Source: Psococerastis gibbosa (lineage: Eukaryota; Arthropoda; Insecta; Psocodea; Psocidae). From it: a stretch of 64,000 nucleotides of DNA. The stretch lies in contig OZ020488.1 of assembly GCA_963971405.1 (NCBI GenBank), positions 31,763,089 to 31,827,088 on the forward strand. Reading direction: 5' to 3'. Below are positions 9,680 to 59,158 of the stretch, one piece after another. The notes under the pieces were generated by a model, which had not been told where the DNA came from, did no database searches, and saw only the letters and a list, made by a program, of their open reading frames with translations. Made by a program: the position numbers and the translations under genes. Within the stretch, counting starts at the first letter, position 1; each line of letters opens with the position of its first letter.

Positions 9680-9683
9680 ATTA

Positions 9684-15480: not shown

Positions 15481-15540
15481 ATATTAAGTGACCTTTTTTT
15501 TTTTTTTTAATGAGATCGGTGAATAGTCATTGATCAAAAA

Positions 15541-27214: not shown

Positions 27215-28136
27215 ACAAATCGATGAACAGACAGACAGACTAACAGACATTTCGTCCCACATTTTTGTTTTTGGGACCACAAAACGTGTAAGTCCGTTCT
27301 AATTTCGATCTTGATAATATTTTGACCTTCACAAAGCTTTCCTTTTACTAACGTAAAAGAACCGGTCCGAGTTTACTCGAACAAGCTTTCCAACAATTTA
27401 TCAATTAGTAGAGTGAGAAAATGATTGATTTCACGGTAAATAATTTTCCTATGGTTAAATTTCGGATATGGGGGGGGGGGGGGGGGAATCGTCCACCTAA
27501 CGTCACTGGAGGTGACGTAAATTCTAGATAGGTCAGACCATCACATTACCACACTGCAATAATGGCAGGGCACGCAATGCATTTTGAGCGTGAATTTGCT
27601 TTTATTTTTTCAAAAAAAATTTTTGCGCAAAACGAAATAGTTTTTTTGGGAAAGTGTCCGGCTTCCTTACTCAATTTTACACCTAAAACATGCCTGAAGC
27701 TAGAAATCATCGATAGTAGGGTTTCGCATAAAAATAATTTTTTAGTCATTTTCATTAAATTTAGTTATTTTTATTTTTTTACCCCCAGAAGCAAACTATC
27801 AAGGGGCAAGCGACCCCCCGCATCTTGTCAACATTAATAACGACTACAATATACAGTATGTGAATTTAAAATAAATCATTGGAGCCGTTTTTTAGAAATA
27901 ATTTTTTTAGATTTTTTTTTCGAGTTTTTTGAGAATAAACCCCCCCCCCCCCAAATTGAGTTAGCCCAAAATAAAAATAAAATGGTCCCGCGGTATGATT
28001 TTTGTGAACCTACATGCAAAATTTCATCAAAATCGACCAAGTAGTTTGCCCGGAAATCGATGAATAGGCAGACAGACAGACAGACATAAAAAACACTTTT
28101 TTGGGTTCCTGGGACCTCAGAACGTGTAAATACGTT
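27215..28136 (+). repeat. 0.87-kb repeat: 3' scrap plus copy 5, interrupted by the Polinton
   Basis: A terminal scrap (27215-27350, GACAGACAGAC through CACAAAGCTTTCC) lies head-to-tail with a new copy that begins AAAGAACCGGTCCGAG at 27357. This copy has the poly-G tract (27470), the ACGTCACTGGAGGTGACG block and the GACA microsatellite (28071-28084). It ends at AACGTGTAAATACGTT, exactly where the Polinton starts. The expected last ~60 bases of the family are not recognisable after the right target duplication at 42321, except for GAAA. Confidence 0.75.
28131..28136. other. Left 6-bp target site duplication of the Polinton
   Basis: TACGTT here is repeated exactly at 42316-42321, directly outside the mirror-image ends of the element. 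Six-base duplications are the rule for Polinton integrases. Confidence 0.92.
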
Positions 28137-28149
28137 AGTAGATATAAAA

Positions 28150-28640
28150 GGGGGTTCCTGGGACACTTTTAGGCCACTCTTGCTTTTTACCTCCGGGCAT
28201 GGGGGTTCCTGGGACACTTTTAGGCCACTCTTGCTTTTTACCTCCGGGCATCATTATTGTTCTAATTGTACATTGTCAGCCTCCGGCTATCACTTATTTT
28301 ATACTACTTCTATGCTAACCTTGTAGCCTATAAAACCACAACACATCATATCACAGGGGGTTTCTGGGACACTTTTAGGCCACTCTTGCTTTTTACCTCC
28401 GGGCATCATTTATGTTCTTATTGTACGTTGTCAGCCTCCGGCTATCAATTATTTTATACTACTTATATGCTAACCTTGTAGCCTATAAAACCACAACACA
28501 TCATATGACAGGGGGTTTCTGGGACACTTTTAGGCCACTCTTGCTTTCTACCTCCGGGCATCATTATTGTTCTTATTCTACGTTGTCAGCCTCCGGCTAC
28601 CACTTATTTTATACTATACTTATATGCTAACCTTGTAGCC
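28150..28640 (+). repeat. Tandem ~155-bp units inside the terminal repeat
   Basis: Units start at 28150, 28201, 28356 and 28511 with GGGGTTYCTGGGACACTT, so the first unit is only 51 bp and the next two are 155 bp. Each long unit contains GTCAGCCTCCGGCTA and ATGCTAACCTTGTAGCC. The mirror array is at 41812-42302. A further partial copy of the unit (GTCAGCCTCCGGCTATCAC) lies outside the terminal repeat at about 29182-29237. Confidence 0.85.
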
Positions 28641-28735
28641 TTTCTTCTTCTTCCCTTCTCTTCTTCTTCTTCTTCTTCTTCACACAGTGTAAGGGGGTCG
28701 CCCCCTCCTGTTATCGGACATCATTCTCATTGTTT

Positions 28736-28949
28736 AAATAAATAAATAAATAAGGACTTTTTGTTCTATTACTAAGCCAACCTAGCGGAGTTAGGGCTAT
28801 AAAGCCCTCTCTTACACTCAACTAGGAAGGCCCGGGACCGCCTGCTTTACATGCCCTCCGAAGCATGACCAGAAAATGTAGCAAGTGTAGGACTCGAACC
28901 AACAACCTTTCGGGTGAAAGTTGGAGTCCGTACCACCACTCTACATGTC
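28736..28949 (-). mobile_element. tRNA-derived SINE in the left terminal repeat
   Basis: The SINE is flanked by the 14-bp duplication CATTCTCATTGTTT (28722-28735 and 28950-28963). On the minus strand it starts with a box A-like TAGAGTGGTGG and has box B GGTTCGAGTCC. It ends in TTAT/TTTA repeats. Its mirror copy is 41503-41716, so both terminal repeats carry the same insertion. Independent copies occur at 10953-11098 and, as a scrap, at 59125-59158. Confidence 0.85.
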
Positions 28950-29052
28950 CATTCTCATTGTTTCTTCTTCTTCTTCACGTAGCCTACATACCGTATTTCG
29001 GGCGATTTCGCCTCCGCAATGATTATTTATTTGATTTACATCATTTCATAGT

Positions 29053-29160
29053 TGGTATTAACTTTATCACATAGACATGCCATGTTCTAAGATTTCACAA
29101 ATTCACTTGTAAAGTAGGCCTAGTATTATTTGAATGAGGGTTTGGTCTAAACTCAGAATA
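29053..29160 (-). pseudogene. Inverted relic of the OB-like gene's 5' module and first codons
   Basis: Read on the minus strand, 29160 to 29083 matches the sequence just upstream of the OB-like gene (40800-40878), including TTTACAAGTGAATTTGTG and TCTTAGAACATGG. The first ten or so codons (MACLCDKVNT against MASLCDKVNA) then run straight into the terminal repeat and hit a stop. The rest of the gene and its 3' flank, about 490 bp in the right-hand copy, is missing here. The terminal repeats were probably once longer and included this gene on both sides. Confidence 0.75.
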
Positions 29161-29303
29161 GTGTAACTAGCTATCATAATTTGTCAGCCTCCGGCTATCA
29201 CTTATTATATACTTCAAGTTATATGCTAACCTTAAGCCAATTGTACTTGACTCATGGTTATTAATAATAGTTAATTTCGAAACTTGCATAAAACTGTAAC
29301 ACA

Positions 29304-29382
29304 TTGGTTGAGGAGCATAGTTGAAATCAAACCTTCTTCCAAGTAATACCACTTTACAAGTAAATTTGTGTGATCTTTCAAC
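29304..29382 (+). promoter_or_regulatory. 5' module of polB shared with the OB-like gene
   Basis: The text from GGTTGAGGAGCATAGTTGA through AAACCTTC, CAAGTAATACCAC, TTTACAAGTAAATTTGTGTG to the start codon aligns along its length with 40791-40875 upstream of the OB-like gene. Two unrelated coding regions sharing about 80 bp up to the ATG suggests a common promoter or leader. The function is inferred. Confidence 0.6.
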
Positions 29383-32300
29383 ATGACACCCCCAATGAAG
29401 AAAAGGAAACTGAACGAGGGTGAATATAAATGTGGAATATGTGATGGTTGCGGGAGTGAAATCATCAACACCGGTCAAACAGTTCTATGTGAAGAATGCA
29501 CATCCATCTTTAAATGTGAGTACGAGAATTCTGAACCTGTCGAAATTGCCCCAATACCAACATCTACTATGAATGGAGAGAAATGTCAGGGTTGCGGAGG
29601 GAAAATTATCAACACTGCTCAAACAGTTCTGTGCGAAGAATGCACATCCATCTTTCCATATGAAATCACACCTAAACCAACATCGACTGGGAATGGAGGG
29701 AAATGCAAGAGTTGCGGAGGTGAAATCATCAACACTACTGAAACAGTTCTATGTAAAGAATGCATATCCATCTTTCCATGTGAGTACAAGAATCTTGAAT
29801 CTGTTAAAATCCCTGAACATAAATTTATTTGTGAATTCTGTTCAGCACCTTTTACTCGAAAGTATAATTTGAAAACCCACATATTAAGCATACATATTAT
29901 TAATTGTTTCAATTGCAACGAATTATTTATGAGAGACTATTTTACTAATCATATAAATAATTGCACAATTATGAGCGGGGGAGAGCTATCTACCGATGAG
30001 AACTTTGCATGTAAAACATCTACAGCTCTAGATGGTGTTGTAAAACAATATAATTATAAAAACATGACCATACATGATCCAGTTGTTTATCTAAATAATA
30101 TGACAGGCGAGGTTGACACCATTACAACTGAAAACATAAAACTTTTAAAAGCTATTAAATGGCATGTAGCTCTACATATTGAATTTGAACGTGGACCCGA
30201 CAGCGATAAAAATTATACTAAGGCGTGGTTTCGTGCTAAAAACGAACAACTTCTCCTAAGTGATAACCCCACAATAAAATATCAACAAATGATTGAACAA
30301 ATTCTAATAAAAATAGATAAATTTCAAGCAATGGGAAGCGGGTGGGTGTTGAAATGTTTAAAAAGTTTTAGTATCTATATTGCTGAATATAATCCATGCA
30401 GTGGTAGTAGTTACATTCCTTTACCTAAAAAAATATATAACACCAAAGCAGTAATCAATATTAAAAATGAAGACCTTAAATGTTTTATATGGTCAATTTT
30501 AGCATACTTGCATCCAGTAAAGATACACGCTGAGCGAGTTCATAATTATAAAAAGTGTGAGAAGGAGTTAAATATGAAAGGTATAACATACCCAGTATCT
30601 TTACAAGTCATTCCAAAATTTGAAAAAATGAATAATATCGGAGTAAATGTGTTTGGTTATGAACAAAGATTGTTTCCATTATATTTATCACAAAGTCAAC
30701 ATTATAATAAGCTAGTAGATCTGCTTTACATAACTGAAGGTAAAAATTCACATTATTGTCTTATTAAAAATTTCAACAAACTTAATTTCTCAATCACGAA
30801 ACATAAGGAACAAAAGTATTATTGCCGTTGGTGTATACACCCCTTCAGTAGTGCTGAACGCTTACACGAACATAAACCACTCTGCTCAACACATGATCCG
30901 CAAAAAACCACATTTCCAACTAAGGAGAAAAGTATTATGAAATTCGATAAGCCACAATATATGATCCCTGTAGCATATAGAATATATGCCGATTTCGAGA
31001 GCATTCTCAGTCCCATTGAAGGGACCAGTTGTAACACTGAAAAATTATCAATGCATATACCATCAGGGTTTTCCTACGTTGTTGTGGATATCAATGGGAA
31101 TAAGTTTAAAGAACCGGTAGTTTACAGGGGAACCGATGCTGTTGATGTATTTTTGAAATCCCTATTAAATGTTAAGGATGAAATTTTAGAAATTTATAAA
31201 AATATTAAACCGGTAATTATGACTGATGAGGATAGAGAAAATTTTAAAAACTCTATCATTTGTAATGTTTGTCAAAAGCCACTAGGAGCTGATCGAGTAA
31301 TAGACCACTGCCATATAACGGGGAAATATAGACAAGCATTACATAATGTCTGTAATATGAGCAATTTTCGAACTCCAAAACATATCCCCGTTTTTATGCA
31401 TAACTTGAGACATTATGATGGACATCTTATCATGCAAGGGGTTGGGAAGCTAAAAAATATAAAAATTACATGTATAGCTAAAACTATGGAGGAATATATA
31501 GCCTTCAGTATTGGGGAGTTACGCTTTTTAGATACATACCAATTTATGGCCACCTCATTAGACTCTTTAGTAAAAAATCTTGTTGATGTGGGTAAAGATA
31601 AATTTCAAATTATGAAAACATGTTTTGTGGGTGAAAAGTTAGACTTAATGTTGAGGAAAGGTGTCTTCCCCTATGAATATATGACGCATGAATCAAAATT
31701 TAATGATGAGCATTTGCCTCCAATCGAAGCATTTTTTAGTCGATTAACTCAAGAGGAGATTTCACAAGAACAATATGAACACGCTCAAAAAGTGTGGAAT
31801 GTTTTTAACATAAAGAATTTAGGGGAATACCAAGACTTATATGTATTAACAGACACCCTTCTTCTTTGTGATGTTTTTGAAGCCTTCAGAGCCTTATGTT
31901 TCGAAAACGATAACCTTGAAATTTGTCACATGTACACAGCACCAGGACTAGCTCTTCAAAGCTGCTTAAAAATGACAAGAGTAGAAATTGAGCTGTTGAC
32001 TGATCCTAATATGCATTTGTTTTGTGAGGCTGGGATTCGCGGGGGTATAAGTATGATTTCAAAAAGATTTGCTGAAAGTAACAATAAATACTTAAAAAAA
32101 TTTGAATCAAATAAACCATCCAAATTTATAGTATATTGGGATTGTACTAACTTGTACGGACATGCGATGCGCCAATTTTTGCCTGTCAGTGGGTTTCGTT
32201 GGATGGATATGGAAGAAATTAAAAACTTTGATGTAATGCTCATACCTGACGAGGGGGATGATGGGTTTATATTGCAGGTGGACTTGGAATATCCACAAAA

Positions 32301-33411
32301 ATTGCACGACTTACATAATGAATACCCACTGGCAGCCGAACATTGTGTTGTTACTTCAAACATGATTTCCCCCTATTGTAAGGAATTTCTTGCTGAAAAT
32401 AATATATCTTTATCATCCACAATCTCAAAGCTTATTCCCAACTTAAACGATAAACACAACTATGTTATACACTATCGAAATTTGAAGCAATGTTTAGAAT
32501 TGGGTTTAAAATTAAAAAATACACATAAAATTTTAGCTTTTAAACAAAGCGCTTGGATGCGACCCTTTATCGATTTTAACACAGAAAAACGAAAATTAGC
32601 TTGTAATGATTTCGAGAAGGATTTTTACAAATTGAAAATTAATAGTATGTTTGGGAAGACAATGGAGAATGTTAGAAAACACACAAAATTAGAGTTAGTT
32701 AACACTACCAAACGAGCTAGCAAACTTATCTCATCCCCCGCATTTAAAGATTTTCAGATTTTTTCAAAAGACTTAATTGCAGTCCGCTCAAAAAAAACTA
32801 ATATTTTACTTAATAAGCCAATATTTGTTGGTCTAACCGTTCTGGAACTATCTAAGGTCGTTATGTATGAATTTCATTATAACTTTGTAAAACAAAGGTA
32901 TGGTGATAAAGCTACACTGATTTTAACAGATACAGATTCTCTGGTTTATGAGGTTGAGAGTGATGATTTATATGTTGATTTAAAGCCATACCCCCATTTA
33001 TTTGATAACTCAGTATATCCCTCAAACCATCTCTTATACAATATTGAAAATAAAAAGAAAGTGGGGACGTTTAAAGATGAGAATGCTCATTCTCACATTT
33101 TACAATGTGTTGCTTTACGCCCCAAATTGTATTCCTTGTTTGAGGAGGGAAAAGAAAAGAAAGTGGGGAAAGGTATAGTTCGCTCAACACTCAAACATCA
33201 TATTTCCCATCAAGACTATTACAATACCCTATTTAAGTCCTACAGTGTAAAAGACTCGTGTAAACCAATGTACCGTATTCAAAGTATTGATCATAAACTT
33301 TTTACAATTAAACAACAAAAACTCACTCTCAGCCCTTATGATGATAAACGGTATGTGTGTCGTAATGGAATTGATAGTTTAGCTCACGGTCATTATCGCA
33401 TTTCACTCTAA
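29383..33411 (+). CDS. POLB: Protein-primed family B DNA polymerase with zinc-finger N-terminus
   Basis: The enzyme would copy the linear element from its ends using a protein primer. The 1342-aa product has three near-identical zinc-ribbon-like units (cysteines from 17, 68 and 108), a C2H2 finger (C150, C153, H166, H171) and another Cys/His finger near 481-501. The 3'-5' exonuclease follows, with DFES at 537, HNLRHYD at 673 and YxxxxxxxD ending at D824. Between the first two motifs sits an HNH/endonuclease-VII-like segment, DHCHITGKYRQALHNVCN, at about 640-657. Polymerase motif A is DCTNLYG (D920), motif B is K1085 to NSMFGKTMEN, motif C is DTDS (D1183, D1185) and KLYSL is at 1248. The ATG at 29383 follows the shared leader module. 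There are no breaks, and it converges on the capsid gene. Confidence 0.95.
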   Translation: MTPPMKKRKLNEGEYKCGICDGCGSEIINTGQTVLCEECTSIFKCEYENSEPVEIAPIPTSTMNGEKCQGCGGKIINTAQTVLCEECTSIFPYEITPKPTSTGNGGKCKSCGGEIINTTETVLCKECISIFPCEYKNLESVKIPEHKFICEFCSAPFTRKYNLKTHILSIHIINCFNCNELFMRDYFTNHINNCTIMSGGELSTDENFACKTSTALDGVVKQYNYKNMTIHDPVVYLNNMTGEVDTITTENIKLLKAIKWHVALHIEFERGPDSDKNYTKAWFRAKNEQLLLSDNPTIKYQQMIEQILIKIDKFQAMGSGWVLKCLKSFSIYIAEYNPCSGSSYIPLPKKIYNTKAVINIKNEDLKCFIWSILAYLHPVKIHAERVHNYKKCEKELNMKGITYPVSLQVIPKFEKMNNIGVNVFGYEQRLFPLYLSQSQHYNKLVDLLYITEGKNSHYCLIKNFNKLNFSITKHKEQKYYCRWCIHPFSSAERLHEHKPLCSTHDPQKTTFPTKEKSIMKFDKPQYMIPVAYRIYADFESILSPIEGTSCNTEKLSMHIPSGFSYVVVDINGNKFKEPVVYRGTDAVDVFLKSLLNVKDEILEIYKNIKPVIMTDEDRENFKNSIICNVCQKPLGADRVIDHCHITGKYRQALHNVCNMSNFRTPKHIPVFMHNLRHYDGHLIMQGVGKLKNIKITCIAKTMEEYIAFSIGELRFLDTYQFMATSLDSLVKNLVDVGKDKFQIMKTCFVGEKLDLMLRKGVFPYEYMTHESKFNDEHLPPIEAFFSRLTQEEISQEQYEHAQKVWNVFNIKNLGEYQDLYVLTDTLLLCDVFEAFRALCFENDNLEICHMYTAPGLALQSCLKMTRVEIELLTDPNMHLFCEAGIRGGISMISKRFAESNNKYLKKFESNKPSKFIVYWDCTNLYGHAMRQFLPVSGFRWMDMEEIKNFDVMLIPDEGDDGFILQVDLEYPQKLHDLHNEYPLAAEHCVVTSNMISPYCKEFLAENNISLSSTISKLIPNLNDKHNYVIHYRNLKQCLELGLKLKNTHKILAFKQSAWMRPFIDFNTEKRKLACNDFEKDFYKLKINSMFGKTMENVRKHTKLELVNTTKRASKLISSPAFKDFQIFSKDLIAVRSKKTNILLNKPIFVGLTVLELSKVVMYEFHYNFVKQRYGDKATLILTDTDSLVYEVESDDLYVDLKPYPHLFDNSVYPSNHLLYNIENKKKVGTFKDENAHSHILQCVALRPKLYSLFEEGKEKKVGKGIVRSTLKHHISHQDYYNTLFKSYSVKDSCKPMYRIQSIDHKLFTIKQQKLTLSPYDDKRYVCRNGIDSLAHGHYRISL

Positions 33412-33430
33412 TTGTATCGCAACCCTGGAG

Positions 33431-33630
33431 CTAATTACCAGCAGAACAAACACAAATAATCTAACTAAGTGATTATAATGACATTGATTTCTTTTAAAAT
33501 ACCTCACCCTAATTGTAAATGATTGTAAGGCTCTTAGAACTAATTACCAGCAAACATTAATAACCTAACTAACCTTGTGTTGGAGGTTTATCTTAAGTGA
33601 TTATAACGACATTGATTTCTATTAAAATAC
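33431..33630. repeat. Imperfect direct repeat between the convergent polB and capsid genes
   Basis: CTAATTACCAGCA, TAACCTAACTAA-type text and AAGTGATTATAA.GACATTGATTTC occur at 33431-33502 and again at 33540-33630, the second copy with about 20 extra bases. The block lies in the only spacer between the two tail-to-tail genes. It might take part in termination or simply be a duplication. Confidence 0.6.
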
Positions 33631-33692
33631 ATGTATTATAAAATTGTTATATCATTAAATGGTTTACATTCATTTACCGGATATCAAGGGTT

Positions 33693-34907
33693 CTACTGTA
33701 GTTGATGTACAATACCTGTTAAAGGTACATATTCATATAAGCAGTCACTAATGAGTAGACAGTAGGCACTCATTTTATCAGGGAAATTAGTTTGACAGTG
33801 AATTTCCAAACGTATATCAACACCACTAGTTTTCATGAGCTCATTCTGTCGTGAGCAATCGATAACCCAAATGGGGTATGATTTTAGAAATTCACTACGG
33901 GAAACGTTTGGAGTTGCTTCATCCTGCATGTAGTAGTGTTTCCGGAAATTGAGAAAATTTTCATATAATACAGCAACAGTATTTTTGCTGAAGTTCGCCT
34001 GTAGCGGATGGTATGGATAGCATTCTGAGCCGAGGAATAGTTGTATTTGTCGTATAGCGCATTGATCAAAAACACTAGCATCTTCCTTAACATCATCTGT
34101 GCGTGCTGCTTGGAAGCCAATAATAGCAAACCGTGGTTTTTCACTTGAAGAAATCATTCGCACAGGCCAATTAATTGATGATGTTGATGAGGGAATGTTG
34201 GGATATTCATACAGTTGCCATGTTCGGAAGCCAATCGGCAACCGAATATTTTCCCTTAGTACACTCAACAATTCAAGGCGCTGACTATCACTCACACTTA
34301 CGAAAGGTATTTCCCACATCACAGTAGTCAGTTTCAATGTCAAGTCTTTAGTGTTTGAAATATCCCGCATGGCATTCGTATTGCTGCGTGATCGTACTAA
34401 GACAAGCTCTTGTTTAACGTTGAGTAGAACTCGTCGGAAATCCTCGCAAAATCCAAACAACATTTTCAATGGCAAACAGAAATTAAAGTTCCTCTCAGTT
34501 TTATTTGTATCTGTATAAAATGAGTTGTTTGTAAGACGTTGTGCATCTTGAGCGGTGAATGATACTAACCCTTTAAGCTGAGTGGTAATACCAGGATTTC
34601 GCACATGATCAATAGTTATTCCATTGAGTTCATAGCGTATTTCAGAGAATAAGTGTGCCATAGCATTAGCACTAAGCCCATCATCATCCTCATAAGCAAT
34701 TGTTTTCACACCTTTTTCTAACACACCTTCAATATACAGTCGGCTTTCACATGGTAGAGTAAGTATATCTTGTTGATGGATTGGTATGCGAATTTCATCA
34801 TTATTATTTAGACTGCTTGATGAATAGGGTGCAATCTTATGGTATTCATAACGTGTTAAACTTTCATCCACGAGAATGGACTCCTTCACGTTTAGCATTG
34901 ATGTCAT
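33693..34907 (-). CDS. Major capsid protein candidate (double jelly-roll, Polinton type)
   Basis: This 404-aa protein has the N-terminal pattern of arthropod Polinton capsid proteins: YHKIAPYSSSSLNNND-IRIPI, ESRLYIEG, then AMAHLFSEIRYELNGITID and LKGLVSF. It closes with EIHCQTNFPD, AYCLLISD and YEYVPLTGIV, like the last strands of that family. It would form the hexon-like shell. It is rather short for a double jelly-roll protein. The assignment rests on recalled family motifs and on position next to the penton-like gene. Its ATG lies 44 bp inside the small upstream ORF on the same strand. It is last in a five-gene minus-strand cluster. Confidence 0.75.
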   Translation of the reverse strand: MTSMLNVKESILVDESLTRYEYHKIAPYSSSSLNNNDEIRIPIHQQDILTLPCESRLYIEGVLEKGVKTIAYEDDDGLSANAMAHLFSEIRYELNGITIDHVRNPGITTQLKGLVSFTAQDAQRLTNNSFYTDTNKTERNFNFCLPLKMLFGFCEDFRRVLLNVKQELVLVRSRSNTNAMRDISNTKDLTLKLTTVMWEIPFVSVSDSQRLELLSVLRENIRLPIGFRTWQLYEYPNIPSSTSSINWPVRMISSSEKPRFAIIGFQAARTDDVKEDASVFDQCAIRQIQLFLGSECYPYHPLQANFSKNTVAVLYENFLNFRKHYYMQDEATPNVSRSEFLKSYPIWVIDCSRQNELMKTSGVDIRLEIHCQTNFPDKMSAYCLLISDCLYEYVPLTGIVHQLQ

Positions 34908-35037
34908 CGTGGATTTTAAAACCTATTGATTGTAAATATCGTCTGTTCTCATTAGTGAGCTTAACACAGCGTACTTGTGTGGAAGCTCGAGTTGGAATGT
35001 TGTATGGTGTATACCGCTGTGAAATATATACTCTCAT
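34864..35037 (-). CDS. Small 57-aa protein overlapping two capsid genes
   Basis: The frame starts at an ATG whose bases overlap the stop of the penton-like gene as ATGA (35034-35037). It ends inside the start of the major capsid gene, a 44-bp overlap in another frame. The product is basic and contains VRCVKLTNENRRYLQSIGF, a phrase that resembles a short conserved peptide I associate with arthropod Polintons. The tight coupling at both ends argues that it is a real gene. The function is unknown, and it may be a small virion or scaffold component. Confidence 0.55.
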   Translation of the reverse strand: MRVYISQRYTPYNIPTRASTQVRCVKLTNENRRYLQSIGFKIHDDINAKREGVHSRG

Positions 35038-35729
35038 GATTGTTTACGTAAATGAAGACGTAAAGTAATAGTTTCCCCTCGGAAATCGACCGTGTTGTTG
35101 TCTTGATCGACAATGTCTAATGTTAGACTTGTAAGTATATTTGTATTTATAGCATGGTAGACGATTGTATGTGGTGCTTCAACAATCCGATAACCAGGTG
35201 GTACATTAGGATAAAATTCATGAACAGCATGTGATGGTCTACCATTCAAATATGATCCTCTTGTAATATTACAATTAATTCGAATTGCATTGACTTTAGA
35301 TATTTTAATGCTATCTGTTGATTTATATATTCCACTTGTGAGAAATGTCACCCCATCATAACCAAAGCCTAGCAGGTATCCTAGTTCTTCATTTACTTCA
35401 ATCGTGAAGCCATCAAGTATTATCCAAACTACGGAATGCATGGTGTTCCGATTCGCGCTTATCGATACGATTTCAGTACCCCACTCTTCATTTATATATT
35501 TAGCTATGTCTGATAATTCGTAAGATCCTATTGGTAATTCAATTATTGTAGCCTCCAGAGGTTTTGAATCGTTTATAATTTTAATCACACCCTTTGAGAG
35601 ATTAGGTATTGAATTATATGTTTCAAGGTCAAGCAAGCCGATTTCCCATACACCTTCAAGTATAATTGGAGGGAAGTAATTGCTACCTAGGAATGACTTG
35701 TTACCACTTAGTGTCAATGTTAGCGACAT
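35034..35729 (-). CDS. Minor capsid (penton-like, single jelly-roll) protein
   Basis: The 231-aa product begins MSLTLTLSGNKS at the ATG at 35729. The frame is open five codons further up, but only with a TTG. It is rich in beta-strand text and ends VDQDNNTVDFRGETITLRL, the characteristic C-terminus of the Polinton penton-like protein. DDFTIEVNEELGYLLGF-type text in the middle also fits that family. It would form the fivefold vertices. It lies 29 bp from the protease gene and shares an ATGA overlap with the small ORF downstream. Confidence 0.8.
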   Translation of the reverse strand: MSLTLTLSGNKSFLGSNYFPPIILEGVWEIGLLDLETYNSIPNLSKGVIKIINDSKPLEATIIELPIGSYELSDIAKYINEEWGTEIVSISANRNTMHSVVWIILDGFTIEVNEELGYLLGFGYDGVTFLTSGIYKSTDSIKISKVNAIRINCNITRGSYLNGRPSHAVHEFYPNVPPGYRIVEAPHTIVYHAINTNILTSLTLDIVDQDNNTVDFRGETITLRLHLRKQS

Positions 35730-35757
35730 AATATAATAAATCAAACATATGCATAGC

Positions 35758-36138
35758 TTATATAACTTTTAATATCATGGAAAATGGATCTTTCATGTAG
35801 AGAAATTTTAGGCATAACTGCCCACAATTTGATGTTGAATAGGTTTGATATGATTGATAGTTGTAGTATATTGCACAGTTGTGAAAATATTGTTTCAATT
35901 CTAAAGGTGGTTTCAAGTCTCCAAAGCTATCGAAGTATATAACTTGGTTTCTAATCTTGCGGTAAGCAACCCAATGTGTGCCGGGTCCCATAGCATCATC
36001 TAAATTAATTATTCCAGCTTCATAATGTTGCCATGGTATGTGAGGTAGTGCATTTCGCATGAACACACCACGAAAATGAGGAACATTAGCGGCGAATTTT
36101 ATAAGTTCCACATTAGTCAGTGGACGGTTCCGAGGCAT
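35758..36138 (-). CDS. PRO: Adenain-like cysteine protease
   Basis: This 126-aa protein has the adenovirus-protease catalytic layout: His55 in GTHWVAY, Asp70 in YFDSFG, Gln98 and Cys105 in NCGQLC. The seven-residue spacing between Gln and Cys is the same as in adenain. The family matures capsid precursor proteins during assembly. It is shorter than adenovirus proteases, as Polinton members are. The ATG is at 36138, five bp after the end of the PLA2-like gene, so the two are probably co-transcribed. Confidence 0.9.
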   Translation of the reverse strand: MPRNRPLTNVELIKFAANVPHFRGVFMRNALPHIPWQHYEAGIINLDDAMGPGTHWVAYRKIRNQVIYFDSFGDLKPPLELKQYFHNCAIYYNYQSYQTYSTSNCGQLCLKFLYMKDPFSMILKVI

Positions 36139-36143
36139 GCAAC

Positions 36144-36863
36144 TTAGTTTTTTGAATAAGGATGTAAGTAGAGTCCACTCCCATTCTTGTATGGTGCTAA
36201 ATATAAGCCTTTTCCAATGGCTATAGATTCCATAGTTTGATTATGACGTTTCATTTCTTCATACTTTTTCTGTGCACTATGGGCTTTATTAGCAGCCGAT
36301 GCAATTCCTGCAGCACCACCAGAGAGAGCACCTAGGGCAGAAAGCCCCGCAAATATCGGGATAAGTGGTAATATACCACCTGTCTTGGCAATAGGTATGA
36401 TTCGAGGAGGTTTCCTTTTATCTCCCTTTAAATTTTTCACAGATTTATATGCGATCTTGATTGCATCCGCCACAGTGGGTGGTTTTGTAAGCTTTATCGC
36501 TTTCTTAGCTGAAGTCAATAGTGATCTGAAAGACACTTTCCGCTTCAACCCAAATCCCAGCTTTCGTTTAACTTTCATTGCAGCTGCTACACCTAAAGCA
36601 ACGATTTTTTCCCCTACAGACGAATCTTTTGCTTTTACACGTTGCCACGCTTGATCTGCCAAATTTTTATCAGCCACGTGTCGACTAGTTATATCTGATG
36701 ATTGTGAATAGGCTATATCATGTTCACGACAAGCTTGATCAAGTTTGTTTCTCCCTCGATCTCCACGAAGTAATCGTTTTTCTAACTTAGTGCCTGGTCC
36801 GCAAAATTGATAGCCGGGGATATGTGCTTCAATTGGTAACTTATTAATTATGTTGTTCAACAT
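36144..36863 (-). CDS. Virion protein with phospholipase A2-like domain and pX/pVI-like membrane segment
   Basis: I take the ATG at 36863 (239 aa), because the frame upstream begins only with TTG. Residues 14-52 hold a calcium-loop-like GPGT (22-25) and an ACREHDIAY helix with the His48-Asp49 dyad. This is the arrangement of the PLA2 domain of parvovirus VP1. A basic middle follows. Residues 161-190 are a glycine/alanine-rich hydrophobic segment like adenovirus pX and pVI, and a C-terminal GKGLYLAPY repeat ends the protein. By analogy it would act on membranes during entry. It is divergent from the ATPase gene. Enzyme activity is an inference. Confidence 0.75.
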   Translation of the reverse strand: MLNNIINKLPIEAHIPGYQFCGPGTKLEKRLLRGDRGRNKLDQACREHDIAYSQSSDITSRHVADKNLADQAWQRVKAKDSSVGEKIVALGVAAAMKVKRKLGFGLKRKVSFRSLLTSAKKAIKLTKPPTVADAIKIAYKSVKNLKGDKRKPPRIIPIAKTGGILPLIPIFAGLSALGALSGGAAGIASAANKAHSAQKKYEEMKRHNQTMESIAIGKGLYLAPYKNGSGLYLHPYSKN

Positions 36864-36938
36864 AGGTATTCTCAAATGCGAATGAGTAAAATGTTTGTAT
36901 ATACAGTGGTATTTATAGCTTTTTTAATCACTCATATA
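36864..36938. promoter_or_regulatory. Divergent promoter between virion genes and ATPase
   Basis: Only about 75 bp separate the two outward-facing start codons. The interval is AT-rich, with GTATATACAG and TATTTATAG as possible TATA-like sequences. It would have to drive the five-gene minus cluster and the three-gene plus cluster. Confidence 0.4.
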
Positions 36939-37634
36939 ATGAAGCTTGTACCACAAAGACATAAGTTCAGTGTGATTCTAAGTCAAGAAGATGAAAATGT
37001 ACGGAGTAATAGAAAGAATGGGCCTTTACTTCCTGCATCGATTCGTGGTACAATCTGCGGTCCATCAGGTTGTGGTAAAACAAGCCTACTATGCAGCATG
37101 ATATATCATCCGTTTGGTCTACGATTTGAAAATGTGTACTTATTCTGCAAGACATTGTTTCAACATAAATACCAGCAGCTTGAGAAAAATATCAATTCTA
37201 TTCGTGGGATGACTTTTACAGGGTCAGGCGATTCAGTTACACCACTCTCTGACATCAAACCTAACTCTGTGCTAATATTCGATGATGTTTCATGTGAATC
37301 TCAAGGGGAAATTCGAAATGTCTACTCTATGGGTCGTCATAAAGGGGTTGATTGCTTCTATCTCACTCAGACCTATACCTCCATTCCGAAACATTTGCTG
37401 CGAGATAATTTGAATTTTATCGTATTATTCAAACAGGATTTGCTTAATATAAAGAATGTGTATAGAGACCATGTTGTGGGAGATATGAATTTAGCGACAT
37501 TCATGAAACTCTGTGCGGAAGCATGGAAAGAGTCACATACATTCCTAGTTATTGCAAAAGATTTTGGATTAAATGATGGACGATATCGGCAGGGATTCGA
37601 TCACTATTTCAAAGATATAAATAACTCTGCTTAA
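36939..37634 (+). CDS. ATP: FtsK/HerA-type (A32-like) genome packaging ATPase
   Basis: The protein pumps DNA into the capsid in related viruses. I choose the ATG at 36939 (231 aa, MKLVPQRHKFS), because members of this family begin close to such a segment. The open frame extends to an ATG at 36876 but adds only a hydrophobic stretch across the divergent promoter. Walker A GPSGCGKTS is at 41-50 and Walker B VLIFDDV at 111-117. The sensor-like text YFLTQTYTSIP-type sequence follows. The gene leads a plus-strand cluster with the conserved protein and integrase. Confidence 0.88.
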   Translation: MKLVPQRHKFSVILSQEDENVRSNRKNGPLLPASIRGTICGPSGCGKTSLLCSMIYHPFGLRFENVYLFCKTLFQHKYQQLEKNINSIRGMTFTGSGDSVTPLSDIKPNSVLIFDDVSCESQGEIRNVYSMGRHKGVDCFYLTQTYTSIPKHLLRDNLNFIVLFKQDLLNIKNVYRDHVVGDMNLATFMKLCAEAWKESHTFLVIAKDFGLNDGRYRQGFDHYFKDINNSA

Positions 37635-37681
37635 CACGTAACTCATCATTATTCATTCGATTATAACACGGTGTAGTAGAT

Positions 37682-38383
37682 ATGGATACCAAAGTTATCA
37701 AGAATATTATCAACATACGCAAAGCTCTGCAACAAAAGTACCTTAATCTTAAACGTGATCTACACAATGAGGCTTCTCAGCAAGAGCGGAAGTTAAAACC
37801 TGTCTTGAAACCTCTACAAGAATTAATTGAGCTGAACAAACAAACAGCGATAGCAAGAGCAATTCATAAACCTGGAGTTAGCAAATATTTAGACTTATTA
37901 ATGCCTAATCAATATAATAGGAAAACCATTGATACATACTATGGAGTAACACGAAGTAATGAAGGTGTATTTATGCTGGGTTCATACCCTGTACATTTTA
38001 ATGCTGATGATGATTCGATCACAATCGAAGATAAAACATGGCAAGGCACATTGGGTTTGTATCAATTATTAACATTGAACAAACCTGAAAACTATACTTT
38101 GGAAGATTTACAAGCCTATAAAGATATATTGGAAAGAACTGGAGCTCATTTAACCACTAGTGGTCGTCTTAGGAGCAGTCAACGTTATAAATATAAAAAT
38201 ATTGTTAAACCGCTTTTTGGAATAAAATCTGGTGGTGAATATCAATATTGGAATGATCCAAATGAATTAGTTGAACGATTACGCTTACTTAATGCATCAC
38301 ATGCCGCAGGACATACAAGCCATCAAAACGAAATCATTAATATTATCAACGAATTGCGAGAAGCAAATATTATTATTCAATGA
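37682..38383 (+). CDS. Conserved Polinton protein (DUF8207-like)
   Basis: The 233-aa product has a charged, probably coiled N-terminus (1-60). A conserved core follows: YYGVTRSNEGVFMLGSYPV, then WQGTLGLYQLLTLNKPENYT and AYKDILERTGAH. The C-terminus, GHTSHQNEIINIINELRE, is typical of the family. The family is found in Polintons of many animals, usually next to the integrase, and its role is unknown. Its stop overlaps the integrase start (ATGA at 38380-38383), so the two are probably expressed from one transcript. Confidence 0.75.
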   Translation: MDTKVIKNIINIRKALQQKYLNLKRDLHNEASQQERKLKPVLKPLQELIELNKQTAIARAIHKPGVSKYLDLLMPNQYNRKTIDTYYGVTRSNEGVFMLGSYPVHFNADDDSITIEDKTWQGTLGLYQLLTLNKPENYTLEDLQAYKDILERTGAHLTTSGRLRSSQRYKYKNIVKPLFGIKSGGEYQYWNDPNELVERLRLLNASHAAGHTSHQNEIINIINELREANIIIQ

Positions 38384-39294
38384 AACAAGCTTTGGTTGAT
38401 GAAATTCATCGACCTGCTCGACGGAATTATCCCCGACGCCATGTGACTGTTAAAGGAATGCATGATTTATGGCAAGCAGATCTGGTGGAAATGATTCCAT
38501 ATTCAAGGATTAATAAAGGATATAAATATATTCTAACAGTGATAAATGCATTCACAAAGTTCGGCTATGCAGAAGCAGTTAAAACTAAATCTATGAAGGA
38601 TGTAACTGAAGCTTTTGTAAAAATTCTCGATAGAGCTCCTCAAGCTCCTGCCCACCTTCAGACAGATATGGGACTGGAATTTTTCAATATACAAATGAAA
38701 TGTATTCTAAAACAATATAACATTAATCATTATGCTACTTATTCTACACTGAAAGCTTCAATTATTGAACGTTGGAATCGCACTCTGAAAAATCGAATGT
38801 GGAAGGAATTCAGCTTGCAGGGTGGTTATAAGTGGTTACATTTAGTACCTCGCTTAGTGCAACAATACAACACTACGAAGCATAGGACCATTAAGATGTG
38901 TCCTGCCGATGTGGGAGAAGAACATGAAGCAAAATTATTATCTATGTATAGAGCTGTTGATGAGAAAGGTAGTACCAAACAGAAATTTCGAGAGGGTGAT
39001 CCCGTCAGAATCAGCAAGCAGAAAGCCTTATTTGAGAAGGGTTACCAACCGAACTGGTCTACAGAAGTATTTCGTGTGCGTCTTGTACAACCTACTCGAC
39101 CTACTACCTATCTCCTTGAGGCTATGGATGGTGAACCTATATTAGGGTCGTGGTATATGGAAGAGTTGCAGAAAACCAAGCACACAGATGTATATTTGGT
39201 GGAGAAAGTGTTGAAAAAGTCTAAGGATAAATTGTATGTGAAGTGGCTTGGTTTCCCGAAACCTACATGGATTAATAAAACGGAAATTTTATAA
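38380..39294 (+). CDS. INT: Retrovirus-type DDE integrase with C-terminal chromodomain
   Basis: The enzyme inserts the linear element into chromosomes, producing the 6-bp duplication seen here. The 304-aa protein has the rve core with D34 (QADLVE), D96 (QTDMGLEF) and E130 (IIERWNRTLK). A C-terminal chromodomain-like module, VYLVEKVLKKSKDKLYVKW followed by GFPKPTW, occupies about 268-300. No N-terminal HHCC zinc motif is seen. Chromodomains can direct integration to marked chromatin in other elements. The frame is intact. The gene runs tail-to-tail with the next minus gene across 13 bp, with AATAAA inside its last codons (39274-39279). Confidence 0.93.
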   Translation: MKQALVDEIHRPARRNYPRRHVTVKGMHDLWQADLVEMIPYSRINKGYKYILTVINAFTKFGYAEAVKTKSMKDVTEAFVKILDRAPQAPAHLQTDMGLEFFNIQMKCILKQYNINHYATYSTLKASIIERWNRTLKNRMWKEFSLQGGYKWLHLVPRLVQQYNTTKHRTIKMCPADVGEEHEAKLLSMYRAVDEKGSTKQKFREGDPVRISKQKALFEKGYQPNWSTEVFRVRLVQPTRPTTYLLEAMDGEPILGSWYMEELQKTKHTDVYLVEKVLKKSKDKLYVKWLGFPKPTWINKTEIL

Positions 39295-39307
39295 ACATAA
39301 CTTTATT

Positions 39308-39799
39308 TTAATCAACATCATCATCAATTAAACAATTGACATCTTGAAACCATTTCTGTAGTTTCCTCAAATTGATCATTGCACAGTTTCCTGTATGAAT
39401 ACATTTCTTAGCTTCTAGATGAGGTAACTTCTCAAAACTCCTCAGAAGCACAGAGTCCAAGTCATACACAACACATTCTAGTATTCCTGCAAGCCAAACT
39501 TGTTTCTCCTTTCCTTTAGTAGCAATTCTAACATATTGGTTAGCAAACTCTAGTAAAATATTCTTTAAATGAATGTAGTCCACGTTCCCCTCTTCCCAAC
39601 GAAGCTTATGGAGATTATTTGTGCACCATGTGTTGTTGCTTTTTACTTGATTTGTAAGATTGGTGAATGGAAAGGGTGGACGGAAAAACCAATGTTCATA
39701 CTGGTTCTTGCATGCAGGGCCCATAGCCAATTCTTTGATGATGAAATTATTTTCATTATCTTTGAAACCTTGAAACTCAATTATCCCCAGCGGTTCCAT
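39308..39799 (-). CDS. Unknown Polinton-associated protein A
   Basis: I prefer the ATG at 39799 (163 aa, MEPLGIIEFQGF), which limits the overlap with the upstream gene to 23 bp. The frame also allows an ATG at 39880. Notable text is FQGFKDNENNFIIKELAM, HWFFRPPFPF, NNLHKLRWEEGNVDY, a KGKEKQVWL block and a C-terminal CIHTGNCAMINLRKLQKW with ordered Cys, His and Asn. I recall this pattern from uncharacterised arthropod proteins but cannot name a domain. A degenerate RNase H-like fold is a weak possibility. An AATAAA poly(A) signal on the minus strand lies directly after the stop (39302-39307). Confidence 0.6.
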   Translation of the reverse strand: MEPLGIIEFQGFKDNENNFIIKELAMGPACKNQYEHWFFRPPFPFTNLTNQVKSNNTWCTNNLHKLRWEEGNVDYIHLKNILLEFANQYVRIATKGKEKQVWLAGILECVVYDLDSVLLRSFEKLPHLEAKKCIHTGNCAMINLRKLQKWFQDVNCLIDDDVD

Positions 39800-40472
39800 C
39801 GTGTTCAACAGTCTGATTGATAATGACTTTAGCTCGCTCCAACCAGCGCTTAAGTATCTCATAGCACAACTCATTTTCATAGATGGTTATAATTTCTAAA
39901 TACATACGATTTGATTGATTTTGATGCTTCTTCCACAATAGTTTACTGCGAACATCCTCGATAGTAGCTACTATTGGAGCTGGAGATTGGGCAAACTGTA
40001 AAAGAGCTTCCATTGAAACATCATCTGTTTCCAACTCTATAAATATCTCTTCCATAATATTTTTTAGATGGAAATTAGCCAACCTCTTCTTCTTTTCCAA
40101 CTCATGGCAAACAATATGAAGAATTGCTTTCAACGCTTGTATGTTCTCAATATTTATTTTAGATAGTTTAATATGTGATGATGAGGACTTCATTTCCAAT
40201 TCATTATCATTCGTTAACATCATCGTCAGGTTTGATTTGATGAAATTAGGAGTCCATATCATATTTCCACACATTGTTTTCTTATGTAGATATAAACGAA
40301 AGGATTGTAATGTTGCACACCATGACTGCCATTCGATCATATTGAATATAATTTCATGATCCTTATCACCAACTATGATGTATACTTCGAATGCTGATGC
40401 TTTGAATTGCAAACCAACAATAATGCTTAGTCCATCACGAAGTGGATAATATGTGGTCAAGACACCCTTCAT
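39777..40472 (-). CDS. Unknown Polinton-associated protein B
   Basis: The ATG at 40472 gives 231 aa. The longer frame to 40484 begins with TTG. The N-terminus is beta-rich (MKGVLTTYYPLRDGLSIIVG, FEVYIIVGDKDHEIIFNMIEW) and the C-terminal half is helical and charged. No catalytic motif is recognised. It overlaps protein A by 23 bp, so the two form a pair. Its upstream region (40473-40790) faces away from the OB-like gene. Confidence 0.55.
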   Translation of the reverse strand: MKGVLTTYYPLRDGLSIIVGLQFKASAFEVYIIVGDKDHEIIFNMIEWQSWCATLQSFRLYLHKKTMCGNMIWTPNFIKSNLTMMLTNDNELEMKSSSSHIKLSKINIENIQALKAILHIVCHELEKKKRLANFHLKNIMEEIFIELETDDVSMEALLQFAQSPAPIVATIEDVRSKLLWKKHQNQSNRMYLEIITIYENELCYEILKRWLERAKVIINQTVEHDGTAGDN

Positions 40473-40790
40473 TTTCAATTGCAACTGATGCTATTTCACA
40501 CATGTTACATATACAACCCGGTTAATTATGGTCATTAAAGAGAGATAATGAGACACAATCGATTTAGAACTAGGTGGGGTACCATAAATGTAGTGCCTTA
40601 GGTACAGAAGGACAAATCAGTCATTTGATTTAAGGTTGTAAGCTGCCTATAATACACCGATGTGTATGAGAGATCAACATTAAGAAACGATTCCTACATT
40701 AACAAATATGGTGCAATGGAGAAATTACTTAACTATCCCCCTCCGGCTGTGGCCCTCACAACATGATTTTACCTGATATACACCCTCATC

Positions 40791-40875
40791 TCAGTTGAGG
40801 GGTTTAGTTGAGACCAAACCTTCATTCAAGTAATACTACGCCAACTTTACAAGTGAATTTGTGTAATCTTAGAAC
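40791..40875 (+). promoter_or_regulatory. 5' module of the OB-like gene shared with polB
   Basis: This is the second copy of the module at 29304-29382, with the same order of blocks (GTTGAGG, GAnACCAAACCTTC, CAAGTAATAC, TTTACAAG, AATTTGTGT) up to the start codon. A third, inverted copy is 29083-29160. The spacer 40473-40790 holds no other recognised feature apart from a CCCCCTCCGGCTGTG string. Confidence 0.6.
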
Positions 40876-41181
40876 ATGGCATCTCTATGTGATAAAGTTA
40901 ATGCCATCAACCAAGAAGCCGGGCCCACCATGTCAATGCGAAAACTGGTGATTGGAGCTAAGTACCAAATACTGAAAATAGTGCAGATAGACAAAACAGA
41001 ATATGGGCCAGCTGTGAAAGTGATACTGCGAGGACCGGAAAAAGAAGTTGTGGAGTGTTTTATACCTCAACTATACCTGTCAGCCTTTCAAGGAAGCAAA
41101 GTCACTCCAGGAGCTGAGATGTATCTCATCGTTCCAAGCCATAGGGGAAAAAATAGTGTCAACATACAGATCCTAGAATGA
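40876..41181 (+). CDS. Small OB-fold-like protein, possible ssDNA binder
   Basis: The 101-aa product begins MASLCDKVNAIN. Its core alternates hydrophobic strands: KLVIGAKYQILKIVQIDK, TEYGPAVKVILRGPE, then a strand ending ECFIPQLYLSAF. The Y.I..I...KT.YG..V.V.L pattern is typical of small OB-fold nucleic-acid-binding proteins. A single-stranded DNA-binding role in protein-primed replication is plausible but only inferred. It is the gene nearest the right terminal repeat. A relic of its start is present, inverted, next to the left repeat. The 218 bp after it hold no further gene. Confidence 0.6.
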   Translation: MASLCDKVNAINQEAGPTMSMRKLVIGAKYQILKIVQIDKTEYGPAVKVILRGPEKEVVECFIPQLYLSAFQGSKVTPGAEMYLIVPSHRGKNSVNIQILE

Positions 41182-41399
41182 AGATTTCATTATGTACTGA
41201 AGTATTATGTTAACTACACCAATAATATGAAATGTAAATATATGAATAATTTCTTTAAATATTTCTGTTTTTGTTTTATTAATTACATAACTAGTTTTAA
41301 GCTTATAATTAGATAATGATTATTAAAAACCAGTGGTTGAAAGAAACATACTATTGCTTCAATAATAATGGTGAAGGTGAAAGATTATCTTAATCATAG

Positions 41400-42315
41400 A
41401 CTATGAAATGATGTAAATCAAATAAATAATCATTGCGGAGGCGAAATCGCCCGAAATACGGTATGTAGGCTACGTGAAGAAGAAGAAGAAACAATGAGAA
41501 TGGACATGTAGAGTGGTGGTACGGACTCCAACTTTCACCCGAAAGGTTGTTGGTTCGAGTCCTACACTTGCTACATTTTCTGGTCATGCTTCGGAGGGCA
41601 TGTAAAGCAGGCGGTCCCGGGCCTTCCTAGTTGAGTGTAAGAGAGGGCTTTATAGCCCTAACTCCGCTAGGTTGGCTTAGTAATAGAACAAAAAGTCCTT
41701 ATTTATTTATTTATTTAAACAATGAGAATGATGTCCGATAACAGGAGGGGGCGACCCCCTTACACTGTGTGAAGAAGAAGAAGAAGAAGAAGAGAAGGGA
41801 AGAAGAAGAAAGGCTACAAGGTTAGCATATAAGTATAGTATAAAATAAGTGGTAGCCGGAGGCTGACAACGTAGAATAAGAACAATAATGATGCCCGGAG
41901 GTAGAAAGCAAGAGTGGCCTAAAAGTGTCCCAGAAACCCCCTGTCATATGATGTGTTGTGGTTTTATAGGCTACAAGGTTAGCATATAAGTAGTATAAAA
42001 TAATTGATAGCCGGAGGCTGACAACGTACAATAAGAACATAAATGATGCCCGGAGGTAAAAAGCAAGAGTGGCCTAAAAGTGTCCCAGAAACCCCCTGTC
42101 ATATGATGTGTTGTGGTTTTATAGGCTACAAGGTTAGCATAGAAGTAGTATAAAATAAGTGATAGCCGGAGGCTGACAATGTACAATTAGAACAATAATG
42201 ATGCCCGGAGGTAAAAAGCAAGAGTGGCCTAAAAGTGTCCCAGGAACCCCCATGCCCGGAGGTAAAAAGCAAGAGTGGCCTAAAAGTGTCCCAGGAACCC
42301 CCTTTTATATCTACT
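41400..42315 (-). repeat. Polinton right terminal inverted repeat (916 bp)
   Basis: It mirrors 28137-29052 with one observed substitution (42100 against 28352) and no length difference. The SINE copy, CTT tract and tandem units are all included. Confidence 0.92.
41503..41716 (+). mobile_element. tRNA-derived SINE in the right terminal repeat
   Basis: In this orientation the head reads GACATGTAGAGTGGTGGTAC. Box B, GGTTCGAGTCC, is at 41552-41562, and the tail is a TTAT repeat. The flanking 14-bp duplication AAACAATGAGAATG is at 41489-41502 and 41717-41730. It is too degenerate and tailed to be a tRNA gene. Confidence 0.85.
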
Positions 42316-42321
42316 TACGTT
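42316..42321. other. Right 6-bp target site duplication of the Polinton
   Basis: TACGTT matches 28131-28136 exactly and abuts the last base of the right terminal repeat. Confidence 0.92.
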
Positions 42322-51627: not shown

Positions 51628-51633
51628 CCGGCC

Positions 51634-55314: not shown

Positions 55315-55348
<34 letters not shown>

Positions 55349-55352
<4 letters not shown>

Positions 55353-55893
55353 TCCGGTTTCGTTACTCAATTTAACACCTAAAACATGCCTGAAGGTAGA
55401 AATCATCAATAGAAAGGTTTCGCAAAAAAATTATTTTTTAGTCATTTTTCATTACAATTTAGTTATTTTTATTTTTTACCCCCAGAAGCAAACTATCAAG
55501 GGGCAAGAGACCCCCGTATTGGTCAATTAATGACGACTACAATATATGTGAATTTAAAAGCAATCGTTGGAGCCGTTTTTGAGAAATAATTTTTTTAGAA
55601 GTTTTTTGGAGTTTTTGAGAATAAAACTCCCCAAAATTGAGTTAGCCCAAAATAAAAAAAAATTGTCTTAAGGCAAGGTTTTTTGCAAACCTACATGGCA
55701 AATTTCATTAAAATCGACCGTGTAGTTTGCCCGGAAATTGATGAACAGACAGACAGAGCGACAGACATTTCGTAAAAACCACTTTTTTTGGTTCCTGGGA
55801 CCTCAAAACGTGTAAATCCGTTGAAATCTCGGAGTCAAAAATTTTGACCGTCACAAAGCTTTCCTTATAACTCCTTATTATAAATTGGAAAGC
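55349..55893 (+). repeat. 0.87-kb repeat copy 6, right half
   Basis: The text resumes at CCTGTCCGGTTTCGTTACTC, exactly where the family should continue after the LINE target site. It runs through the GACA microsatellite (55745-55766) to ATAAATTGGAAAGC at 55893. Confidence 0.78.
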
Positions 55894-55957
55894 AATAACA
55901 ATAAAATTCTACTAAGCAATAGATTTCAAACCCCCTAATAACAACTCCGGAGTTGTA

Positions 55958-56018
55958 ACTTGTACCTCCTATATTATGTTATCCCGATAATCGAGCAAGA
56001 TATCGGGTTTTGTCTGAA
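55958..56018 (+). repeat. Direct repeat flanking the split 0.87-kb repeat, right copy
   Basis: This is the partner of 50798-50858, and similarity decays gradually to about 56075. The sequence from there to 56398 is unique, with no gene recognised. Confidence 0.7.
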
Positions 56019-57052: not shown

Positions 57053-57083
<31 letters not shown>

Positions 57084-59124: not shown

Positions 59125-59158
59125 TATAAAGCCCTTTCTTTCACTCAACTTGGAAGAC
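59125..59158 (-). mobile_element. SINE scrap
   Basis: ATAAAGCCCTTTCTTTCACT plus CAACTTGGAAG is a short inverted match to the part of the SINE reading CTTCCTAGTTGAGTGTAAGA (compare 41624-41650). Confidence 0.45.

Follow-up and report, generated by a model that had tools for sequence, protein, structure and literature searches.

Is the Polinton that lies in a 64,000-nt stretch of Psococerastis gibbosa contig OZ020488.1 (positions 31,763,089 to 31,827,088; hereafter the window) still able to move, and by which mode of replication would its family have spread? Most genomic Polinton/Maverick copies of vertebrates are degraded, according to the available portion of a survey (PMC8097293), and a sequence-only reading of the window had described a complete copy with all expected modules open that could still be mobile. 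The element spans positions 28137-42315 of the window (14,179 bp), exactly as first placed. We consider it likely that it is one standard copy, with a left and a right end (L/R), of a recently amplified Polinton/Maverick family that replicates by the cycle proposed below. With somewhat less assurance, we favor the interpretation that the chromosomes of this insect hold the replication products of a live Polinton, namely standard genomes, genomes with two right or two left ends, and compound genomes, each with a clean 6-bp target duplication.

Both ends of the element open with AGTAGATATAAAAGG, the tip of which, AGTAG, is of the 5'-AG type. The ends and the target duplication had been described as intact, and the terminal inverted repeats (TIRs) and flanks bear this out:

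28131..28136, direct repeat: left copy of the target-site duplication TACGTT
28137..29052, forward strand: left TIR, 916 bp, 0 mismatches to the right TIR, tip AGTAGATATAAAAGG
28150..28641, forward strand: tandem repeats of 51-bp and 155-bp units within the left TIR, with mirror images at 41811-42302
29053..29153, forward strand: leftover of a formerly longer TIR, with 92% identity to 40806-40906, holding a truncated start of a gene of 101 amino acids (aa)
41400..42315, reverse strand: right TIR, 916 bp, mirror of the left TIR
42316..42321, direct repeat: right copy of the target-site duplication TACGTT

Inward of the 916-bp TIR, 493 bp are present in the right arm only and are followed by the 101 bp matching at 92%. 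Because a mismatch-free repeat gives way to this gap and then to a diverged match, the outer part of the TIR has been homogenized and adjoins what is left of an older, longer repeat. The right-arm-only stretch carries most of the 101-aa gene, the start of which persists as a stub in the left arm. A host repeat at the insertion site has GGGTTCCTGGGAC (28103-28115) in common with the 51-bp TIR repeat; since a second subfamily of the element, B, has a similar tip motif, this 13-nt likeness is probably due to chance.

Related copies with matching ends elsewhere in the genome, on which the sequence-only reading had made its case depend, are plentiful. A search of the 409-Mb assembly (68 contigs) with a 32-nt tip pattern, allowing two mismatches, returned 85 sites, every one of them exact and the two of the window included, while the reversed-pattern control returned none. 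These sites sort into 38 pairs and 9 singles. Identical 6-bp duplications flank 35 of the 37 large-contig pairs as paired by their tips. The remaining two, C1:43544372 and C20:2363372, were considered as insertions lacking a duplication, which was ruled out: both have an extra tip further to the right (two of the 9 singles), and with the outer tip they give identical 6-mers (TATACG and GTTCAT, respectively), bringing the total to 37 of 37 chromosomal insertions. The 37 duplications are mutually different and follow no strict motif, and the tip found in the window is thus combined with 36 other target sequences. The 38th pair, L148 (C34:35157-41203), consists of jumbled element pieces with two tips on a small contig.

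The copies are not only numerous but also largely open. Counts for the major capsid protein (hexon), the DNA polymerase PolB and open reading frame (ORF) A are lower bounds, as 103 of 879, 35 of 1019 and 150 of 362 candidate places were scored, respectively. In subfamily A, to which the window element belongs, the hexon gene was found at 100% identity (rounded) in at least 42 places, 41 of them open and one with a stop; in subfamily B it was found in at least 61 places at 92-93% identity, all 61 open. PolB gave at least 32 full-length matches among the 35 scored, of which 30 were without a stop. ORF A was full-length in at least 52 subfamily A places, all open, and in at least 89 of subfamily B, three with a TAA, with nine further partial matches; it stood at the expected side and spacing for 56 of the 61 B hexons. 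In 15 of the 22 L/R pairs of subfamily A, the window copy included, PolB, hexon and ORF A were all full-length and open (one of the 15 has a stop in the protease gene, and for one further L/R pair PolB was absent from the scored places). When seven genes were sampled in ten copies each, 68 of 70 were open; one hexon and one protease were not.

Subfamily A copies hardly differ from each other: the mean pairwise difference was 0.09% over 3.3 kb (maximum 0.18%) in ten copies and 0.18% over 2.55 kb (maximum 0.43%) in ten others. If neutral change is assumed to run at about 3e-9 per site per generation, the divergence of these copies would date back in the order of 150,000-300,000 generations. The near-identity of the copies, their open genes and their different target duplications together argue for mobility of the family, as had been proposed from the intact state of the window copy, and would fit a recent mobilization via free linear DNA.

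Not all insertions have the structure of the window copy. Arm type was read from the sequence directly inside the shared 916 bp, and with junction patterns the 38 pairs were classed as 22 L/R, seven R/R, four L/L and five unclassified. Hence 11 of 38 pairs (11 of the 33 classified) are symmetric: the sequence of one end is repeated in inverted orientation at the opposite end, over 1.3-4.6 kb where mapped. The left end of C2:28936238 consists of 3,608 bp of right arm, fused directly to the interior of PolB; at C2:27444078 and C2:33115259 right-arm sequence of 1,355 and 1,313 bp forms the right end; C15:12573821, C19:7911815 and C20:19813814 each have one end made up of 3.1-4.6 kb of left arm; and C12:12807519 has an identical multi-piece rearrangement of about 4 kb on both arms. 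Of the five unclassified pairs, three were placed on the window: two are deletions that reach the TIR, and the third, C2:38981184, with right-side sequence at both ends and a truncated right tip, may be a twelfth symmetric copy. Two compound insertions have an internal tip, and their target duplication lies at the outermost tips only. Finally, C21:1116244 and C42:35721 carry one three-piece rearranged arm with identical breakpoints and different flanks, from which it seems that this form arose once and was inserted at least twice.

As this evidence comes from an assembly rather than from reads, symmetric and compound copies could be assembly or library artefacts; three fetched arms (L095, L137 and L145) do contain 200-N gaps, and the small contig C34 holds jumbled pieces. 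We regard this as very improbable, given that all 11 symmetric pairs have a 6-bp duplication (C1:43544372 only with its outer tip) and that the ten mapped ones lie on large contigs between perfect duplications; a restored target duplication is not what an artefact would be expected to leave.

A break in an integrated standard copy, followed by invasion of one TIR into the other, inward copying of the wrong arm and end-joining, would also produce symmetric copies and would leave their target duplications intact. The TIRs are identical and inverted, and the junctions, mapped on the window in 10 of the 11 symmetric pairs, show 0-10 nt of overlap or insertions of 1-6 nt, as end-joining might leave. 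On the other hand, one third of the classified pairs are symmetric although the sampled copies differ by just 0.1-0.2%, and the mapped symmetric arms are themselves 97.4-100% (mostly >99%) identical to the window. Because of this frequency among such similar copies, because two differently flanked sites share a rearranged arm, and because the compound insertions have their target duplication only outside, the rearrangements more probably preceded integration, and we consider repair after integration an unlikely origin for these copies.

We return to the replication-product interpretation and propose the following cycle. Starting at both tips, PolB would replicate the element in the form of free linear DNA, with priming probably by a protein, by analogy with adenovirus. 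The inverted ends would template each other, so that they stay identical and a host repeat captured in one end is carried to both. An occasional switch of the growing strand between arms would yield symmetric genomes, some having only right ends and others only left ends. All three kinds of genome, standard, symmetric and compound, would then be inserted by the integrase and acquire a 6-bp target duplication; because all of them have been inserted alike, the defective forms would have needed help in trans. Packaging into particles may have been part of the cycle, at least while the two subfamilies diverged, because selection has kept the hexon, protease and phospholipase A2 (PLA2) genes as well as PolB and integrase.

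The genes on which this proposal draws are the following, E denoting the expectation value:

29307..29388, forward strand: 5' flank of PolB, resembling that of the 101-aa gene (78% identity in 88 aligned nt)
29383..33411, forward strand: PolB, 1342 aa, with zinc repeats, an endonuclease VII-like insert, and exonuclease and polymerase motifs
33693..34907, reverse strand: double-jelly-roll major capsid protein (hexon), 404 aa, PF21738, E 1.9e-92
35034..35729, reverse strand: penton candidate, 231 aa, by gene position next to the hexon
35758..36138, reverse strand: adenain-like cysteine protease candidate, 126 aa, by motifs and a sub-threshold Peptidase_C5 match (E 0.03)
36144..36863, reverse strand: phospholipase A2-like protein, 239 aa, PF08398, E 8.2e-14
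36876..37634, forward strand: A32-like packaging ATPase, 252 aa, PF04665, E 3.3e-9, above cut-off
37682..38383, forward strand: conserved protein, 233 aa, no family match of weight
38380..39294, forward strand: rve integrase, 304 aa, PF00665, E 6.4e-10, above cut-off
39308..39880, reverse strand: ORF B, up to 190 aa, no family match, likely start at the ATG near 39799
39777..40472, reverse strand: ORF A, 231 aa, no family match of weight
40876..41181, forward strand: 101-aa gene bordering the right TIR on its inner side

All main ORFs of the window copy are open, and the claim that every expected module is present stood for hexon, PLA2, ATPase and integrase by Pfam family, and for PolB by a regional match and motifs. 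PolB is divergent: its whole-length Pfam scan gave weak endonuclease VII-like and zinc-finger signals and no polymerase family, while the stretch encoding the exonuclease region (31030-32000) matched DNA_pol_B_2 with 30.7 bits against a cut-off of 25.8. The stretch with the palm motifs (31948-33411) gave no family match in the profile scan, and a PDB sequence search with PolB returned zinc fingers only. A motif scan, using what we take to be the definitions of the exonuclease and polymerase motifs, found both sets, and together with the regional match they suggest a polymerase of the protein-primed kind. The PolB N-terminus (29398-29781) contains a zinc-ribbon-like unit repeated about three times with a 120-bp period, for which reason this region may vary between copies. 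PolB also has CFIWS and HYCLI motifs, which we take to be those of OTU-like N-termini; no OTU-like domain was matched in Pfam. Nor did a C-terminal chromodomain of the integrase match in Pfam, a weak match to the Rhino chromodomain having an E of 0.4.

The protease had been described with a catalytic triad and oxyanion glutamine, and triad-like motifs (GTHW, DSFG and SNCGQ) are indeed present in the candidate, the Peptidase_C5 match reaching 14.5 bits against a cut-off of 21.3. As for the two capsid candidates, the hexon was upheld, with 1083 relatives at E<=0.001 among 3411 candidates in a protein collection; among the matches listed (120 of the 1083), the best is 66% identical and the species-named ones are insects, at 41-42% identity. 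The second candidate gave no Pfam match and an unusable single-sequence fold (mean predicted local distance difference test score, pLDDT, of 31), so that its penton label follows from gene position and it is a candidate only. The single-sequence fold of the 101-aa protein (pLDDT 57) added little, neither this protein nor ORF A had a relative at E<=0.001 in the protein collection, and a role of the former as a single-strand DNA-binding protein was dropped with no result in its favor. Apart from weak matches, PHROGs and NCBIfam scans returned endonuclease VII-like and transposase/integrase families only, and phage records added little or nothing. That ORF A and ORF B are one broken gene was ruled out by the constant length of the 231-aa ORF in both subfamilies. 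Because the 5' flanks of PolB and the 101-aa gene are alike and this likeness recurs in subfamily B, they may form a promoter-like cassette, as if a promoter were common to both genes.

Selection on these genes was estimated as the pairwise ratio of non-synonymous to synonymous change (dN/dS), with our own script, comparing for each gene the window copy with three copies of subfamily B. At a dS of 0.21-0.48 between the subfamilies, dN/dS was 0.12-0.50 across eleven genes: 0.12 for integrase, 0.14 for hexon, 0.16-0.17 for PLA2, 0.16-0.22 for protease, 0.19-0.21 for ATPase, 0.22 for PolB, 0.22-0.23 for the 233-aa protein and 0.25-0.29 for the 101-aa protein. ORF B (0.31-0.33, with 121 codons aligned in one B copy) and ORF A (0.37-0.38) overlap, which may bias their values. 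With the penton candidate excepted, the virion genes thus appear to be constrained about as tightly as those for replication and integration.

These values bear on whether the element is a self-synthesizing transposon that spreads by transposition only and carries its capsid genes as baggage, with no particle formed. The record analyzed here is chromosomal DNA, and defective copies with few genes have inserted, both of which would fit such a transposon. Baggage is not expected to be kept as hexon, protease and PLA2 are, about as constrained as integrase and PolB between subfamilies, and the hexon was open in 102 of 103 scored places. We consider transposition only to be improbable; because these virion genes are so constrained, particle formation is plausible.

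The inverted ends bear a further trace of exchange between them, a 214-bp repeat between 14-nt direct repeats present in both TIRs:

28736..28949, reverse strand: host repeat resembling a short interspersed nuclear element (SINE), left TIR, between 14-nt direct repeats (28722-28735 and 28950-28963)
41503..41716, forward strand: matching SINE-like repeat in the right TIR, AAACAATGAGAATG flanks at 41489-41502 and 41717-41730

We read it as SINE-like because of its T-rich tail, the direct repeats around it and a stretch resembling a B box; neither ARAGORN (as tRNA) nor Rfam called it. Pieces of its relatives lie in the host flanks at 10949-11090 (86-91%) and 59125-59156. The arms of three other A copies (one left-type, two right-type) match those of the window over more than 1 kb at 99.6-99.8%, host repeat included, whereas the outer 886 bp of the A right arm, which contain the repeat, had no match in the six B arms examined. 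Since both A TIRs carry the repeat and these B arms do not, we conclude that it inserted in one end, spread to the opposite end and multiplied together with the family, the spread probably preceding the multiplication. It can thus serve as a lineage marker, and it shows that sequence of one end reached the other. In four A copies (C12:12807519, C12:48532435, C13:1099748 and C19:6475026) arms are about 283 bp longer, the left in one copy, the right in another and both in two; in C12:12807519 the extra length comes from 28695-28977, a segment enclosing the host repeat, being present twice in tandem. This duplication may have moved between ends or may have arisen more than once at flanking GAA repeats.

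One subfamily B tip reads AGTAGTATAG, and three of the four testable copies of this subfamily have a 6-bp duplication. All six B arms examined (three right, three left) contain the 101-aa gene segment, inverted relative to subfamily A and 84% identical to it over 648 aligned bp. Within one copy the B TIRs are 97.4-99.6% identical (six copies), and in three they align from the tip over 1.6-1.7 kb. Facing inverted ORF A copies are found 8.2 kb apart at G000:C1:5632432/5640642 and 11.3 kb apart at C20:6031398/6042745, for which reason symmetric forms may exist in subfamily B too.

Outside the Polinton, the window contains on the forward strand an open frame of 1203 aa (51628-55239) that by eye resembles an R1/Jockey-type long interspersed nuclear element (LINE) with endonuclease and reverse transcriptase, and several adjacent frames (15523-18533) that by eye resemble a broken LINE with pieces of both. 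Positions 7735-10233, 55342-57684 and 62097-62898 are copies of one host repeat family, often in inverted pairs, with GACA/TGTC runs and long G or C runs.

Several observations weigh against the proposed cycle and the replication-product interpretation. The evidence base is an assembled genome, and no element product was recognized as a terminal protein. The pair on C34 has no target duplication, nor does one of the four testable B copies, the arm concerned having a 200-N gap, and some copies have stops or deletions. The far ends of the insertions with the shared rearranged arm are hidden by an N gap (C21) and a contig end (C42), and any one simple symmetric copy, taken by itself, could stem from chromosomal repair. 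A hexon pattern search of viral contigs yielded no relative, pairwise dN/dS is silent on the time since the burst, and the penton candidate (dN/dS 0.48-0.50) changes faster than the other virion genes.

If the replication-product interpretation is true, these chromosomes document virus-style free linear replication, help in trans for defective genomes, and the recent burst of a family with capsid genes kept under selection. The symmetric copies offer a sequence-level test of the replication mode of the element. Polintons carry capsid genes, and particles of Polintons had not been observed, going by the accessible text of one survey (PMC8097293); a host with dozens of near-identical, open and recently inserted copies makes expression, free DNA, new insertions and particles searchable in living animals.

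The element is a Polinton/Maverick and as such of a known kind, met here in an unusually live state. Like those described (PMC4028283, available portion, as for the other sources compared here), it has PolB, an rve integrase, an A32/FtsK-like ATPase, a protease candidate, a double-jelly-roll major capsid protein, long TIRs and 6-bp target duplications, and it departs from them in that a 101-aa gene borders the TIR (on both arms in the case of subfamily B), both TIRs contain a host repeat and many copies are symmetric. The family is probably close to the animal alpha adintovirus sort: it resembles alpha-class adintoviruses (PMC11071296) in its hexon, here with insect relatives, and its rve integrase, and differs in that the OTU-like domain and chromodomain were without a Pfam match and no viral-contig relative was found. 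As in Spodoptera Mavericks 1 and 2 (PMC5803895), one insect genome holds two Maverick lineages with a PLA2-bearing capsid-like protein; the Spodoptera lineages, from assembled contigs, are 52% identical on average, whereas here each subfamily has dozens of near-identical chromosomal copies. Intact vertebrate Mavericks, at most 38 copies per genome in the survey (PMC8097293), likewise have intact ORFs, TIRs, 6-bp duplications, AG/AGT-type end motifs and capsid genes under purifying selection, and the available text of that survey yielded no report of symmetric copies. Nor was a report of symmetric or palindromic Polinton copies found among titles and abstract openings, a scope that left subscription papers mostly outside. 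The unexpected part of this family is its population of symmetric and compound copies. The linear, protein-primed genomes of adenovirus yield symmetric recombinant or defective molecules in which one end is duplicated at the other; those are free or packaged molecules of cell culture, whereas the symmetric genomes described here are inserted in host chromosomes.

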